Shown here piece after piece: positions 10,889-26,737 of a stretch of DNA of 27,845 bases. Under the pieces are notes generated by a model, which was not told where the DNA came from, did not search any database, and saw nothing but the letters and a program-made list of their open reading frames with translations. The stretch comes from a virus. Both the position numbers and the translations under genes were made by a program. The number at the start of each line of letters is the position of its first letter. The first letter of the stretch is position 1. The DNA is taken from IMG/VR virus record IMGVR_UViG_3300037231_000131, positions 1 to 27,845 of that record; one strand, 5' to 3'.

Positions 10889-13192
10889 ATGGAATATCAA
10901 ATTATTCATGATGACTGCCTCCATGCTATGCAACAAATGGCAGATAATTCTGTTGATTTTATCGTCACTGATCCTCCGTATGGACTTCATTTTATGGGTA
11001 AATCATGGGATAAGTTTAATAAATCTAATTTTGATGAAAATGGAATGCATAAACATCTTGATAATGCCTCTATTGATGGTAGGTCTTGCAATGTTAGAAA
11101 AGTTTATTGCGCAAATGCTGTAGCTGGTACTTATGATGAAAATCTTAACGATGAATTCCAAGAGTTCATTCGCATTGTTGGTATCGAAATGCTGCGCATA
11201 TTGAAACCAGGTGGAATGCTTGCCATGTTTGGTGCGCCTAGACGTCACCATAGGCAAATGTCAGGGCTTGAAGATGCAGGATTTGAGATACGCGATTGTA
11301 TTGCTTGGATATTCGGACAGGGATTCCCTAAGTCTCACCGGATTTCCAAGCACTTAGATGCATATCTACAGGAGGCCGATATTTGCCAGTGCGTCGAAAA
11401 TAAGCCATGCAACGAGTACACAATCCCTTTGCAAAATGCTTTCGACCACATTTGCAATTTGGATATTTGGAAACAAGCGGTAAATGTAACTGAAAATGAT
11501 CTTTATGATTTGAAAAAAGTTCTAGGTTTTCAGGATGATTATCAGTTCGATCACCATTCTTATGATGAATTTCTTCGCCTTTCTTCAATTCTCTATCTAA
11601 AACTTTTTCCATCACAAGAATGTGTTCAAGAACATAACCATTATGACGCGCCCTATGATGTTCAGGTTTACGAATCATTATATAACCTTTTACAGGTTCG
11701 ATATAACGACCTCCTTTCCAAGCAGGATTTAATTCTCTCTTCATTTTATCAGCTTGTTTTTTCCTTGCTTGAGGGGTATAAAGTTGATCATGGGAGCGCA
11801 GACGATTGGCACAAGAAGTTGAACAAGCAGCAGGATTTTTTAACTTCTTTTCATAAGCTGGTCGAACGTAAAAACCCCTTGAACATATTGGACATTTTTT
11901 GTTTGGTATTCTGTTTACCTTTTCCATTAATTAAACTCCTTTCTTTAAGGAAACTCGAAACCATAATACCATGGTTTGATATATGTTTGCAATGTAATAG
12001 ATTAAAAGATCACTGGAAAGGTTATGGAACCGCTCTCAAACCAGCTTATGAACCGATTATAATTTGTATGAAACCACTTGACGGAACATTTGCCAAGAAT
12101 GCTGAAAAGTGGGGTGTTGGTGGGATTAATATTGAATCTAGCAGAGTCGGCGTATCTCAGCACGAGAAAGACCTGTTGCCCTTAACTTTTGATAACGAAT
12201 CTTTTTCTTCTCCTGAATTTTGTTGTAATGCTCTTTTCGGTATTTCTTCTGCGCTAAAGACATGTAACAATTTTTGCAAAGATCATTGGCGTAATGGTCT
12301 AAAACTGGATGGCACTTCGATTTCGGTCTTTGAATATGAGTCTCTCGTAGTTCTCCTGTATCCCAATGGTGTTTGGTGTGGGTTGAATTTGTCATTAATT
12401 CAAGATTCTCAATCCGATTGTCCAGTTTATCGCCATTTATATGATGAACTGCTTCCCAACGCTCTAAAGAACGCCCTATTGTCTGCTCCATTATTAGGCG
12501 ATGCTCTGCACGATATTTTCCAATTCCTACTTTTACCTGCCAATATCCATTTCTTTTGTAACGACCTCCCTTCCACCTTGGATGTGTTGGACCTTCTTCG
12601 TGCATTATTAAACCCTCTTTTTAATCCTACATTATATTTATCCCAGACAAAAATGTCAAGTGGAAGATGGCCAAGTAATTTGATACTAAGTGAAGAATCA
12701 GCCGTTGAGCTGGACAAGACGACAGGGAATCTAAAAGGAAATTGTGGAATTAAAGGAAAGTTTAGAGGTCAGAGACATTCAGGGCAATTTGCAGGTGGTG
12801 GAATAAGTGGAGAAAGAGAATATAATTTTGAAGGTTACCATGATAATGGTGGAGCCAGCCGTTTTTTTAAAATAGTTGACCAAAACAATAGTCGATTCCT
12901 ATATTGCGCCAAAGCCTCATCATCCGAAAGAAACAGAGGGCTTGACAAACCATGCTCACATCCTACTGTAAAGCCATTATCATTAATTAAGTATATTATT
13001 AAATTACTTGCACCTCCAAATAAGCCAATCATGCTTGACCCATTTTTAGGATCGGGAACCAGTTTAGTCGCAGCCAAAGAATTAGGTATATCAGCCATTG
13101 GAATTGAAAAAGAAAAGGAATATGTTGAGATTGCAACTAAAAGGCTAGATGCTGCAAAATGTATCAATCAAATGGAGATGTTTAATGGATAA
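10889..13192 (+). CDS. Beta-class DNA methyltransferase carrying two in-frame antisense HNH insertions
   Basis: The 767-aa frame is an N6-adenine or N4-cytosine methyltransferase. The catalytic motif IV DPPY is at residues 28-31 and the AdoMet-binding motif I (LDPFLGSGT) at 716-724; this order defines the beta class. Conserved phage-enzyme blocks are interrupted twice. Between SKHLDA (about 158) and WKGYGTALKP (about 376) lie about 216 extra residues; between SSRVG (417-421) and SGRWPSNL (591 on) lie about 168. The extra segments coincide with antisense HNH genes plus their promoters, and the sense frame stays open. Without them the enzyme is about 383 aa, a normal size. Insertions fall in the variable target-recognition region. 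Whether the long form is translated and active is unknown; no intein motifs or ribozyme core were seen there. Confidence 0.85.
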   Translation: MEYQIIHDDCLHAMQQMADNSVDFIVTDPPYGLHFMGKSWDKFNKSNFDENGMHKHLDNASIDGRSCNVRKVYCANAVAGTYDENLNDEFQEFIRIVGIEMLRILKPGGMLAMFGAPRRHHRQMSGLEDAGFEIRDCIAWIFGQGFPKSHRISKHLDAYLQEADICQCVENKPCNEYTIPLQNAFDHICNLDIWKQAVNVTENDLYDLKKVLGFQDDYQFDHHSYDEFLRLSSILYLKLFPSQECVQEHNHYDAPYDVQVYESLYNLLQVRYNDLLSKQDLILSSFYQLVFSLLEGYKVDHGSADDWHKKLNKQQDFLTSFHKLVERKNPLNILDIFCLVFCLPFPLIKLLSLRKLETIIPWFDICLQCNRLKDHWKGYGTALKPAYEPIIICMKPLDGTFAKNAEKWGVGGINIESSRVGVSQHEKDLLPLTFDNESFSSPEFCCNALFGISSALKTCNNFCKDHWRNGLKLDGTSISVFEYESLVVLLYPNGVWCGLNLSLIQDSQSDCPVYRHLYDELLPNALKNALLSAPLLGDALHDIFQFLLLPANIHFFCNDLPSTLDVLDLLRALLNPLFNPTLYLSQTKMSSGRWPSNLILSEESAVELDKTTGNLKGNCGIKGKFRGQRHSGQFAGGGISGEREYNFEGYHDNGGASRFFKIVDQNNSRFLYCAKASSSERNRGLDKPCSHPTVKPLSLIKYIIKLLAPPNKPIMLDPFLGSGTSLVAAKELGISAIGIEKEKEYVEIATKRLDAAKCINQMEMFNG
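11328..11927 (-). CDS. HNH homing endonuclease antisense within the methyltransferase (first)
   Basis: The 199-aa protein has an N-terminal zinc knuckle (CPIC...CSTSC), a central HNH nuclease core (EEIHHKNGDRTDNHPENLEL, catalytic HH and N...N...H visible) and a C-terminal second zinc finger (CKCGRKHFAKGLCTRC). This is the standard free-standing phage HNH layout. AAGGAG lies eight bases upstream of the ATG. Its last 10-12 codons read into conserved methyltransferase sequence and end at a stop provided there. It is closely related in design to the second antisense HNH (12138-12605), suggesting two insertions of one family. Confidence 0.85.
   Translation of the reverse strand: MEKVNRIPNKKCPICSRGFYVRPAYEKKLKNPAACSTSCANRLRSHDQLYTPQARKKQADKMKRELNPAWKGGRYIEPVKGYIMIRKPEHHRARHNGYVLEHILVMEKVLDRELKKGEEIHHKNGDRTDNHPENLELFSNHKDHFQLHLPLVSKYPNCKCGRKHFAKGLCTRCMAYFRRTGKYRPPVDMHLSAWKSGET
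11963..11992 (-). promoter_or_regulatory. Promoter of the first antisense HNH gene
   Basis: On the minus strand TTGCAA (11987-11992) and TATTAT (11963-11968) lie 18 bases apart, about 35 bases upstream of the HNH start. TCCTT-AAAGA-AAGGA next to the ATG could partly hide the ribosome site. Confidence 0.45.
12138..12605 (-). CDS. HNH homing endonuclease antisense within the methyltransferase (second)
   Basis: This 155-aa protein has the HNH core EAVHHINGDKLDNRIENLEL with all catalytic positions visible. It begins with a WKGGRY...GYWQVKVG DNA-binding lead-in that the first HNH shares (WKGGRYIEPVKGYIMI). The C-terminal part has a zinc finger remnant (CHPVLDHYANDLCKNC) and a basic tail. It lacks the N-terminal CPIC knuckle of its paralogue. 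An AAGAGGG site precedes the ATG. Its stop lies in the conserved SSRVG-coding segment of the methyltransferase. Confidence 0.85.
   Translation of the reverse strand: MHEEGPTHPRWKGGRYKRNGYWQVKVGIGKYRAEHRLIMEQTIGRSLERWEAVHHINGDKLDNRIENLELMTNSTHTKHHWDTGELRETHIQRPKSKCHPVLDHYANDLCKNCYMSLAQKKYRKEHYNKIQEKKKIRYQKLRATGLSRAEIRRLC
12631..12659 (-). promoter_or_regulatory. Perfect consensus sigma-70 promoter for the second antisense HNH
   Basis: On the minus strand TTGACA (12654-12659), a 17-base spacer and TATAAT (12631-12636) match the consensus at every position. Transcription would begin about 19 bases before the HNH ATG and run against the methyltransferase. Confidence 0.8.
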
Positions 13193-22408: not shown

Positions 22409-22897
22409 ATGTCGATCACGACTACAGGCAATTTAGGGCCGCTGATTCTGCAATCACTTGCACCAGCTATGCTCTATGTGCCAACGCCCACAATGAACAA
22501 CATCATCGTTTGCGACAAGGTTTCAATGCCTGCAAATGGTGGTACTACATGCAGATTTATGCGCCCACGCGCTCTGCAACCGCCAACTATTCAGTTGGGA
22601 AATTCTGGTATTGATCCACCAGCTCAAGTGCCTCAAAGAGATATCATAGACGCACAAATGGCCTTTTTCGGGACTGGATGTATAATCAATGAACAGGTTA
22701 TCCTCCAAGATCAAGAAGGTGTTTTAGCTTGGGTGTCAGAGCGTTTAGCTGTGGCAATGAGACAAGCTGAAGATTTAATTTTACGGGATTATATTGTTTC
22801 TGCGGCATCTGAATTGATGGCTGGAGGCGGATCAAACGGGGATAACCCGAGCAATCTAGGCCTTTCAGATTTCTCTTTAGTTGCAACAACACTCGAT
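22409..22897 (+). CDS. Major capsid protein, exon 1 (N4 gp56-like)
   Basis: The exon encodes residues 1-163, ending in VATTLD at the codon boundary 22895-22897. The sequence resembles N4-gp56-type coat proteins (LILQSLAPAMLYVPTP; RDIIDAQMAFFGTGCIINEQ; RQAEDLILRDYIVSAAS). The unspliced frame would add 20 intron-coded residues and stop at 22955-22957. The exon end is set by P1 pairing (see intron). AAGG precedes the ATG. Hundreds of copies of this protein make the procapsid shell around the scaffold. Confidence 0.8.
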
Positions 22898-23098
22898 AAA
22901 CTTTGTGTCGAGTATAAACCCTCAATAATTGACTTAGAACTCCTACTTGCTGCGTAAAGTATACAGTAAGGGACAATAAGGGGCAAGCAGGAAATTTTCC
23001 GTGCAGCCTGACAGACTAAACTTAAGGGACCCAGTAATGGGTATGCGATAGTCGAGCCTGTATAGTAATATACAGAGGTAGCAGAAATGACTACCCGC

Positions 23099-23929
23099 TT
23101 AAATGATAGGTTGGTTGAGTTGACGAGTTTTTTGATAAATTTCTTCCCTTCCAGAAAAATCTTTGGAAAGAACTTTTTCTCTAAGTTTCATCAATTCAGC
23201 GCAAATAGGTTTTTTGTGAACCAAAAAAGGATAAATACCTTGAAGAATAGGATCAAGTTGCAAATTTGCAATTCTCCAAAGCATTTGGTTTCTACAGTTA
23301 GGAAGATGACTTTTATCCAAAAAATGAAATTGTCCTCCGAATTTTCTAGAAACCCAATAAAAAAATGGAGATTTAGAATTATTGCATTGCAATTGTGCTC
23401 TATATGTAGGAGTTTTTCCTCGTTTTTGCATGACCTTGCTAATGTCGAGACTACATTCAGCATCAACAAAACCTGCAAGATAGGCAAAATCTTCTTTAGT
23501 TGCTTTAAGAGTATTTCTCAAGGATTCTATTTCTTCTTTAAGAGAAGTTTTAATAAGGTAAGTTTCTTCCTTAAGGATCTTCATAGCTTTAACAAGGGAT
23601 TTTCTAGATTCCTTGAAATTGTTAGATCTAAAGTTAAGGAAAACTTCACATTCTTTAAACTTTTCAATAAGAAAGGGTTTTATTCTGTTAAGAAATTTAT
23701 AACCTTCTTTGGTAAACACAAAATGATAGGATGGAAGTCTATTTTTCTGTTTCGTTTTTTTAACTTGAATCGTGCCTTCAAAATGCTCGTTGAACCATTC
23801 AATGTTATCAAAATTAGTAGAAATAATAGAGAAAGTGTCTTGAAAAAATGGAGAAGTTTTAATTTCTCCAATATAAAAGCACCCATTTCCATCAATATAT
23901 CCTGCTGCGTATGCTAACCATGTTTCCAT
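23099..23929 (-). CDS. LAGLIDADG homing endonuclease, antisense within the intron
   Basis: The 276-aa protein has two LAGLIDADG motifs, AAGYIDGNG (residues 8-16) and LAGFVDAEC (151-159), so it is a two-domain monomer. The catalytic position in motif 1 is Asn15 in place of Asp; motif 2 has Glu158, as I-DmoI does. A helical, Lys/Glu-rich linker (residues 105-145) joins the domains. It is transcribed opposite to the coat gene. No Shine-Dalgarno precedes the ATG, whose A lies seven bases after a TATAAT box, so a leaderless mRNA is possible. Apart from Leu5 (TTA) it uses no TTA, CTA or TCA codons among 25 Leu and 17 Ser. Confidence 0.85.
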   Translation of the reverse strand: METWLAYAAGYIDGNGCFYIGEIKTSPFFQDTFSIISTNFDNIEWFNEHFEGTIQVKKTKQKNRLPSYHFVFTKEGYKFLNRIKPFLIEKFKECEVFLNFRSNNFKESRKSLVKAMKILKEETYLIKTSLKEEIESLRNTLKATKEDFAYLAGFVDAECSLDISKVMQKRGKTPTYRAQLQCNNSKSPFFYWVSRKFGGQFHFLDKSHLPNCRNQMLWRIANLQLDPILQGIYPFLVHKKPICAELMKLREKVLSKDFSGREEIYQKTRQLNQPII

Positions 23930-23935
23930 GCTAGA

Positions 23936-23965
23936 ATTATAGTATGTAAGCGTTGTTTAAGTCAA
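23936..23965 (-). promoter_or_regulatory. Promoter of the LAGLIDADG gene, inside the intron 3' end
   Basis: On the minus strand TTGACT (23960-23965), 18-base spacer, TATAAT (23936-23941). The predicted start site falls on or next to the A of the ATG at 23929. The box lies in the last 45 bases of the intron. Confidence 0.65.
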
Positions 23966-23980
23966 CAAGTAATAGTAAAG

Positions 23981-24460
23981 ACAAATAATGCTTATAAGTT
24001 CATGTCAGGTATCGAGGGCATGGACAGATTCGGTACGGGTCCAATAAGAGCCTCTTATTTCATGTTAAGTTCGACTGAATTACAGTCAGACTTTGACGGA
24101 TTAACAGGCGTAGGAGTGTTTAACAACTGGAATTATCCAAATAATACAAGCGCGCTTCCTTCCGAGTGGGGCTCAGTGTATAATTTGAGAATTCTTACCA
24201 GTTCCGAAGCTCCAGTGGCTCGTGGTGCATCAGCTTTAGGGCAGGATGTCTACTATAATGCCGTTATGGGTAAACAGGCGATCACACATATAAATCAAGA
24301 TGGATATTCCATGAATTTGATTTATCGTGATCCTTATTACTCTGGAATGCTGGCACAGAATGCAACCTTGGCTGTTAAATTTGCTCAGGCTCAAGCATTG
24401 ACTCAAGATACGGCTATCCGTAATTTGCTTTGCACACGCTTAAGCACATTGGGGGTGTAA
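23981..24460 (+). CDS. Major capsid protein, exon 2
   Basis: The exon opens with TNNAYKFMSG and continues IEGMDRFGTGPIRASYF, a block conserved in N4-gp56-type coat proteins. It encodes the last 159 residues to TAA 24458-24460, making a 322-aa coat protein with exon 1. Without splicing, translation could only begin at ATG 24002 (MSGIEGMD), which would miss the conserved lead-in and has no Shine-Dalgarno. The 3' splice site follows G 23980. Confidence 0.8.
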   Translation, partial: TNNAYKFMSGIEGMDRFGTGPIRASYFMLSSTELQSDFDGLTGVGVFNNWNYPNNTSALPSEWGSVYNLRILTSSEAPVARGASALGQDVYYNAVMGKQAITHINQDGYSMNLIYRDPYYSGMLAQNATLAVKFAQAQALTQDTAIRNLLCTRLSTLGV

Positions 24461-25689: not shown

Positions 25690-25718
25690 TTGATTATGTA
25701 AATAACACCAAGTATACT
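25690..25718 (+). promoter_or_regulatory. Promoter whose -10 lies in the HNH leader stem
   Basis: TTGATT (25690-25695), 17-base spacer, TATACT (25713-25718). The predicted start, about 25725, is at the first base of the hairpin loop. Confidence 0.55.
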
Positions 25719-25746
25719 ACCTCTTAATAAACTGAGAGGTAGTATA
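25713..25746 (+). promoter_or_regulatory. Ribosome-site-sequestering stem-loop
   Basis: TATACTACCTCT (25713-25724) is perfectly complementary to AGAGGTAGTATA (25735-25746), with a 10-base loop. The 3' arm contains the GAGG ribosome site and the A of the HNH start codon, so a long transcript would hide both. Confidence 0.75.
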
Positions 25747-26312
25747 TGAAAAATTGCCCTACATGTAATTGTGAAAAAGATGAAAGTGAATTTAATATAG
25801 ATAGGAATCGTAAAGGAGGATTTTCATACGATTGCAAAATATGTAATCGTATTCGTACACAGAAACATCTAGAAAAACATAGAGAAAAAAATAAAGAAAG
25901 AAGTCGTTTATTTTATGAGAATAACAAGGAGCATTGTCAGGAAGTCAAAAGAGAATATTATGAAAAAAATCGTAAAATTTTTATAAAAAGAGCAAGAGAT
26001 TGGAGTATTGATCCAATCAAAAAAGAAAGAAAAAGGATTCGTGCTCGAGCTTATAAGAAAAAACAGATCGAACTTGCTAAAGCGCATAAACTTATTAATG
26101 CAGACTATAAAAAACGTCAGATATCTGCACATTTGAAAGTTTATTGGGCTGTTAAAAAAGGAAGATTAATAAAACCTGAAATTTGTGAAAAATGTGGTGA
26201 AAAAAAAGATTTACAAGGTCATCATGAAGATTATAAAAAACCTCTAAAAGTTATGTGGTTGTGCTTCATATGCCATTGTAAGCAACATAATAAATATATG
26301 GATTTAACATGA
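25746..26312 (+). CDS. Free-standing zinc-finger HNH endonuclease, 188 aa
   Basis: The N-terminus has a zinc finger (CPTCNCEKDESEF...CKICNR), then a long basic helix rich in Lys/Arg/Glu (residues 40-125). The C-terminal HNH core is CEKCGEKKDLQGHHEDYKKP with WLCFICHCKQH. This is a familiar phage HNH type. It sits between two paralogous structural genes and overlaps the following gene by four bases (ATGA). Its expression appears to be controlled by the hairpin and internal promoter. Confidence 0.85.
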   Translation: MKNCPTCNCEKDESEFNIDRNRKGGFSYDCKICNRIRTQKHLEKHREKNKERSRLFYENNKEHCQEVKREYYEKNRKIFIKRARDWSIDPIKKERKRIRARAYKKKQIELAKAHKLINADYKKRQISAHLKVYWAVKKGRLIKPEICEKCGEKKDLQGHHEDYKKPLKVMWLCFICHCKQHNKYMDLT

Positions 26313-26737
26313 GTTCCCCACCCCTTTTGAACGGTCCACAAGCTCCCTATAACAATCCACCAATTGAACCCCAAAACTTCAAACCGTCTAGATTCGTTAT
26401 AAGTGCCGTTACATTAGGAAATACAACACTAGTGACAACGTCAGTCAATCATAATTATGTTATCGGGCAAGAATGTAGATTGATAATCCCTAATGGTTAT
26501 GGATGCAGACAACTCAATGGAGTTACTGGATTAGTCGATTCGATACCAAACCCAAATCAGGTCGTTTTATTGATAAATTCAAGCGGTATAGATCCATTTA
26601 TTGCTGCTAATTTGAGACAACAACCTCAAATTTTAGCAATCGGAGATATAAATTCAGGTGCAACAAATGATGCCGGAAGAAAATATACTAAATCTTATAT
26701 TCCAGGTTCATTTCAAAACATTTCTCCTCAATCTTAA
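26309..26737 (+). CDS. Structural protein paralogous to the second half of the 405-aa gene
   Basis: The 142-aa protein shares a pattern with the 405-aa protein: HNYVIGQECRLIIPNGYGC / HNLELGQEVAFRVLPFWGM, QLNGVTG / QLNSLPN, and ILAIGDINSGATND / IVAVGDVNTGGVSI. The closing PGSFQNISPQ resembles KGSFVNNTSQ. The N-terminus is Pro/Asn-rich. It is probably a small surface or decoration protein derived by duplication. Its start overlaps the HNH stop by four bases. Confidence 0.6.
   Translation: MSSPPLLNGPQAPYNNPPIEPQNFKPSRFVISAVTLGNTTLVTTSVNHNYVIGQECRLIIPNGYGCRQLNGVTGLVDSIPNPNQVVLLINSSGIDPFIAANLRQQPQILAIGDINSGATNDAGRKYTKSYIPGSFQNISPQS

Follow-up and report, generated by a model that had tools for sequence, protein, structure and literature searches.

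In the phage DNA analysed here, a free-standing HNH endonuclease gene quite probably carries its own expression switch, in which RNA read through from upstream genes is predicted to hide the Shine-Dalgarno (SD) sequence and RNA from an internal sigma-70-type promoter is predicted to be translatable. In the proposed mechanism, a mobile HNH gene would have been inserted, together with this switch, between two genes of a virion operon. Readthrough RNA from the capsid operon would fold into a hairpin of 12-15 bp that hides the SD sequence and part of the start codon, and the endonuclease would not be translated from it. A transcript from the promoter TTGATT-17-TATACT would begin at the edge of the hairpin loop (about 25724-25727), lack the 5' arm and leave the start codon free. 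The HNH gene would be uncoupled from a strongly transcribed operon, with its own promoter as the sole source of expression; this promoter would probably be active at any time that host RNA polymerase holoenzyme is present. Promoter activity, the difference in translation, the timing of expression and homing activity are what we infer from sequence data.

The DNA is a 27.8-kb virus record (IMGVR_UViG_3300037231_000131, positions 1 to 27,845), hereafter the window. The HNH gene lies between the genes S405 and P142 (Table 1). S405 comes after the major capsid gene, and its relatives, found at 73 loci, are likewise preceded by a capsid gene. The HNH protein matches the PHROG 2340 'endonuclease' profile (E = 3e-26), and alignments reveal a CxxC..CxxC finger in its N-terminal part and a C..C-HH-C..CH motif in its C-terminal part, with C147, C150, H159, H160, W171, C173, C176 and H177 invariant. 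Comparison of this protein with Pfam gave nothing above threshold, and a structure search found no solved relative.

Table 1. Coordinates of the HNH locus and its predicted control elements in the window
Feature	Position	Strand	Basis
S405, late-type gene 5' of HNH, 405 aa	24462..25679	+	ORF
-35-like hexamer TTGATT	25690..25695	+	Sequence; TTG at exactly N17 recurs in HNH relatives
Hairpin 5' arm	25712..25726	+	RNAfold; exact repeat 25713-25724
-10-like hexamer TATACT, within 5' arm	25713..25718	+	Sequence; position enriched in relatives
Predicted transcription start, loop edge	25724..25727	+	Inferred, 6-8 nt past the -10
Loop AUAAAC, 6 nt	25727..25732	+	RNAfold
Hairpin 3' arm, with ribosome site and start codon bases 1-2	25733..25747	+	RNAfold
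Shine-Dalgarno core GAGG, 6 nt 5' of ATG	25736..25739	+	Sequence
HNH endonuclease gene, free-standing, 188 aa	25746..26312	+	PHROG 2340 and alignments
P142, 142-aa phage gene 3' of HNH	26309..26737	+	ORF; start overlaps HNH stop (ATGA)

Other inserted genes are present in the same record. A DNA methylase frame of 767 aa (10889-13192, +) holds two inserts and stays open through both; these contain HNH-like genes on the opposite strand (11328-11927, -, and 12138-12605, -). They resemble the 'ShiLan' case of an HNH insert hidden within a phage methylase, which is described there as out of frame (PMC11855218). The major capsid gene is split (22409-22957 and 24002-24460, +) by an insert of about 1 kb that contains an antisense LAGLIDADG gene (23099-23929, -). 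The capsid gene is uninterrupted in relatives such as L008 and L010 and split elsewhere in others. This insert is probably an intron; its comparison with Rfam gave no match at the gathering score. Upstream of the antisense LAGLIDADG gene, the sequence TTGACT-N18-TATAAT (23930-23980, -) ends 6 nt before the ATG, which would leave the transcript with almost no leader. L062, L012 and L069 retain TTGACT, with TATATT or GATACT at N17.

The hairpin in the window is confirmed. The perfect 12-bp stem of the original prediction (25713-25724 with 25735-25746) was recovered both by an inverted-repeat search and by RNAfold, which lengthens it to 15 pairs including G-U and end pairs. No other inverted repeat in the window reaches 11 bp with full complementarity and a real loop; the remaining complete ones are self-overlapping palindromes. 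The 111-nt region has a folding energy of -26.9 kcal/mol, whereas shuffled versions average -14.2 (z = -4.1) and 1 of 200 does as well. The stem had been said to cover both the GAGG site and the start codon. GAGG does lie wholly in the 3' arm, and coverage of the start codon (25746-25748) is partial, with A paired to U, U paired to G at 25712, and G unpaired.

Folding models of the long and short RNAs point to a difference in access to the ribosome site. In the long RNA the SD sequence has an unpaired probability of 0.00, and sequestration of the site in readthrough RNA is thus supported by the fold model as well as by related loci. In RNAs modelled from 25724-25727 the 5' arm is absent and the start codon is free with a probability of 0.97-1.0. 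The SD sequence is predicted to remain weakly paired with codons 4-6 in this short form (-6.2 kcal/mol). The proposal that loop-start RNA is translatable is therefore borne out in the model for the start codon and qualified by this residual pairing. Ribosomes translating S405 are unlikely to open the stem, since S405 translation stops 33 nt before it.

The promoter is less distinctive when the window is considered by itself. TTGATT-N17-TATACT is present as predicted, with its -10 in the 5' arm, scores 9/12, and is the top match in the 185 nt upstream of HNH, where the runner-up scores 8. Matches at the 9/12 level number 12 in 3.3 kb, compared with a chance expectation of 14.2. As such a score is at chance level, relatives are needed to judge the promoter; the window sequence alone backs the hairpin, and the related loci back both elements.

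Relatives of the HNH gene were taken from viral contigs, and 846 other SD-bearing genes of the same loci served as controls. Single HNH proteins used as direct queries returned few relatives, and A2 was too diverse. Contiguous hairpins covering the SD sequence with a dG of -7 kcal/mol or lower occur at 22 of 61 HNH genes and 22 of 846 controls (p = 2e-16). At -11 kcal/mol or lower the counts are 16/61 and 1/846, and shuffled upstream sequence yields a hairpin of this strength in 0.2% of cases. With the window excluded and a second HNH family included, hairpins of -9 kcal/mol or lower are found at 26/114 genes compared with 8/846 controls (p = 5e-19); in this second family (HNH_3 type), 12 of 55 genes have one at -7 or lower. 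About half of the HNH relatives lack a strong contiguous hairpin. The hairpin finder and the -10 rule applied below were devised after viewing examples drawn from this set; cleaner checks are provided by the -35 test, the second family and an unconditioned promoter scan. Genes that share an insertion site are not independent, and statistics at the level of junctions are weaker.

Promoter elements recur inside these hairpins at a fixed position. A -10 matching TATAAT in at least 5 of 6 bases and ending 5-9 nt before the loop is present in 18 of 35 hairpin-bearing HNH genes. Synthetic perfect hairpins placed on control genes give 2.8 +/- 1.5, and none of 2000 replicates reaches 18. This comparison rejects the possibility that an AT-rich spacer simply yields a TATAAT-like complement. 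Swapping flanks among HNH genes yields a mean of 12.2, with 18 reached in 7 of 2000 replicates, and is a weaker control because HNH flanks themselves contain promoter pieces. The TTG of the -35, which lies outside the selection, stands at exactly N17 in 10 of the 18 genes, with 0-3 genes at other spacers. Clustering by homology of the upstream protein merged unrelated insertion points, and the junction groups were therefore assigned manually. TTG at N17 is found in 6 of 17 such groups (window out, second family in) against a background of 1.45% (p = 1e-7; p = 2e-4 with a conservative group correction).

The unconditioned scan takes the best promoter lying no farther than 140 nt from the start codon; of 21 predicted starts, 17 fall between -3 and +1 relative to the first base of the loop. 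The predicted start is 10-30 nt from the start codon for 19 of the 21 HNH promoters, versus 21% of control promoters. The complete layout is seen in 12 of 61 HNH genes and 2 of 846 controls (p = 2e-13). In the second HNH family the -10 is found in 6 of 16 hairpins and the -35 at N17 in 3 of these 6, and a LAGLIDADG gene (L064:4228) has the layout of the window HNH gene. By visual inspection, Vibrio phage K67 shows this layout too: its HNH gene comes after the gene for the single-strand binding protein and is preceded by TTGATT-17-TATCAT, with the -10 at the foot of a stem over the start. At the level of sequence, the combination of hairpin and promoter thus recurs in more than a dozen related phage genes, its sequence varying from one to another, as a module that is common, not universal. 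The geometry in these loci supports the predicted promoter start at the loop. At one common insertion site the host gene contributes the -35 and spacer from its 5' end, with the -10 at the junction, and this arrangement suggests that promoters may be completed at the point of insertion.

The enrichment bears directly on the possibility that the hairpin merely silences translation, with low levels of endonuclease arising through breathing of the stem and with no working internal promoter. This account would fit the chance-level promoter score in the window's own region, and about half of the related hairpins lack a good -10, including strong ones at L092, L088 and L151. It is nevertheless unlikely, as the family shows strong enrichment both for the placement of the -10 with respect to the loop and for a -35 at exactly N17, a pattern that the window fits.

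Start-covering structures were also observed in a different context. In the Bacillus and Enterococcus phages L247, L248, L249 and L252, HNH genes lie between or beside parts of a DNA polymerase gene, in a setting that resembles a group I intron, and the start codon or SD sequence is in a hairpin. No clear promoter was found inside these hairpins, and the cases were left out of the layout counts.

Comparison with near relatives separates the HNH gene and its hairpin from the surrounding operon. In L006, where the S405 protein is 96% identical, HNH is absent and P142 follows 68 nt after S405; the gene is thus present or absent at one site in near relatives, as is characteristic of homing genes. 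The L006 junction is without the hairpin and promoter of the window and has another GC-rich hairpin that covers no ribosome site. In nearly all HNH-less relatives examined, the interval from S405 to P142 contains a GC-rich hairpin, in many cases followed by a T-run; this element is likely a partial terminator, and its sequence varies among L006-L082. Its presence in nearly all the other relatives examined identifies it as an old element separate from the SD hairpin. It has been lost from the window. In L038 the same junction is occupied by another HNH gene, of a different zinc-finger kind, whose SD hairpin is perfect and starts in TATAAT.

The prevalence of this element raises the idea that the window stem belongs to the operon, as a terminator or processing hairpin following S405, and merely adjoins HNH. 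Identity with the conserved hairpin was rejected, because the L006 hairpin differs in sequence and L058 carries both the ancestral operon hairpin and a distinct SD hairpin, in a row. SD hairpins also precede HNH genes at other insertion sites, and no T-run follows the window stem, all of which makes this explanation very improbable. Equally little credence is given to the inverted repeat as a DNA site (an operator or endonuclease recognition site) without an RNA switch: the repeat overlaps the promoter, and T4 intron endonucleases bind near the promoters of their own genes and so repress them (PMC2988022), yet a shared site would keep its sequence, whereas the repeats vary among relatives with SD pairing always kept, as in the stems ATATCTTCC/GGAGGATAT, ATGTCTCC/GGAGACAT and ATTCTCCT/GGGAGAAT from one insertion site, where both arms vary. 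Autorepression may exist in addition to the RNA switch.

The proposed RNA switch has close counterparts among T4-like phages. The T4 genes for I-TevI, I-TevII, I-TevIII and segB, and mobE of Aeromonas phage Aeh1, follow the same hairpin logic with T4 middle or late promoters (PMC2988022, PMC3014915). In the T4 endonuclease genes the SD sequence is hidden in long RNA, and RNA from their own promoters lacks the 5' part of the hairpin; these genes are in part intron-encoded or specify GIY-YIG proteins, unlike the window gene. The lysozyme gene e and soc of T4 are likewise off in long RNA and on in short RNA (PMC3014915), as predicted for HNH, but they are phage genes with late promoters and not mobile endonucleases. 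The closest parallel is mobE, a free-standing HNH homing endonuclease gene whose ribosome site is hidden by a hairpin in readthrough RNA and whose promoter RNA lacks the inhibitory arm (PMC2988022). The free-standing HNH gene, which the original prediction had presented as a new point, is therefore not new.

What distinguishes the HNH gene of the window from mobE is that the mobE promoter is of the T4-type late class, whereas the -35/17/-10 of the window is of the sigma-70 type and lies in a phage unrelated to T4. The window shares with T4-type hairpin-controlled endonuclease genes a stable structure over the ribosome site and, judging from the geometry in relatives, a promoter RNA predicted to start inside it. 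The promoters of the related HNH genes are not of the T4 middle or late type but combine a -35 of the form TTGANN at N17 with a TATAAT-like -10. The new points are the sigma-70-type promoter, its occurrence in non-T4 phages and the recurrence in several endonuclease families. In the literature covered, which excluded most subscription journals, no sigma-70-type, unrelated-phage or multi-family case was found.

The timing of expression may also depart from the T4 pattern. A Pfam search found no phage RNA polymerase in 39 relatives, although the control search was likewise empty, and the examined part of the L006 contig contains no polymerase-sized or polymerase-type ORF; late transcription is likely carried out by the host polymerase. 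If this enzyme is used throughout the cycle, the HNH gene's own promoter would be usable from the start and the long RNA would appear late; the gene would then be on early and off late, the opposite of I-TevI. The T4 endonuclease genes, with middle and late promoters, are 'early off, late on', and this order may be reversed in the window, where a virion operon lies upstream. A broader reading, held tentatively and at slightly less than an even chance, is that outside T4-like phages the switch has arisen repeatedly, in two HNH families and in one or more LAGLIDADG genes, through the placing of a host sigma-70 promoter in an SD hairpin. Within virion operons, such genes would be expressed early and independently of late transcription and would be silent in the late burst, so that T4 timing would be reversed.

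The layout provides a searchable signature, consisting of a -35, 17 nt, a -10 in the 5' arm, a predicted start at the loop and an SD sequence in the 3' arm, and it offers a direct test of early versus late timing of mobile endonucleases. A trick of a handful of T4-like genes would thereby become a pattern across many environmental phages. This would show how a selfish gene may sit inside a heavily transcribed essential operon and not be expressed from it.
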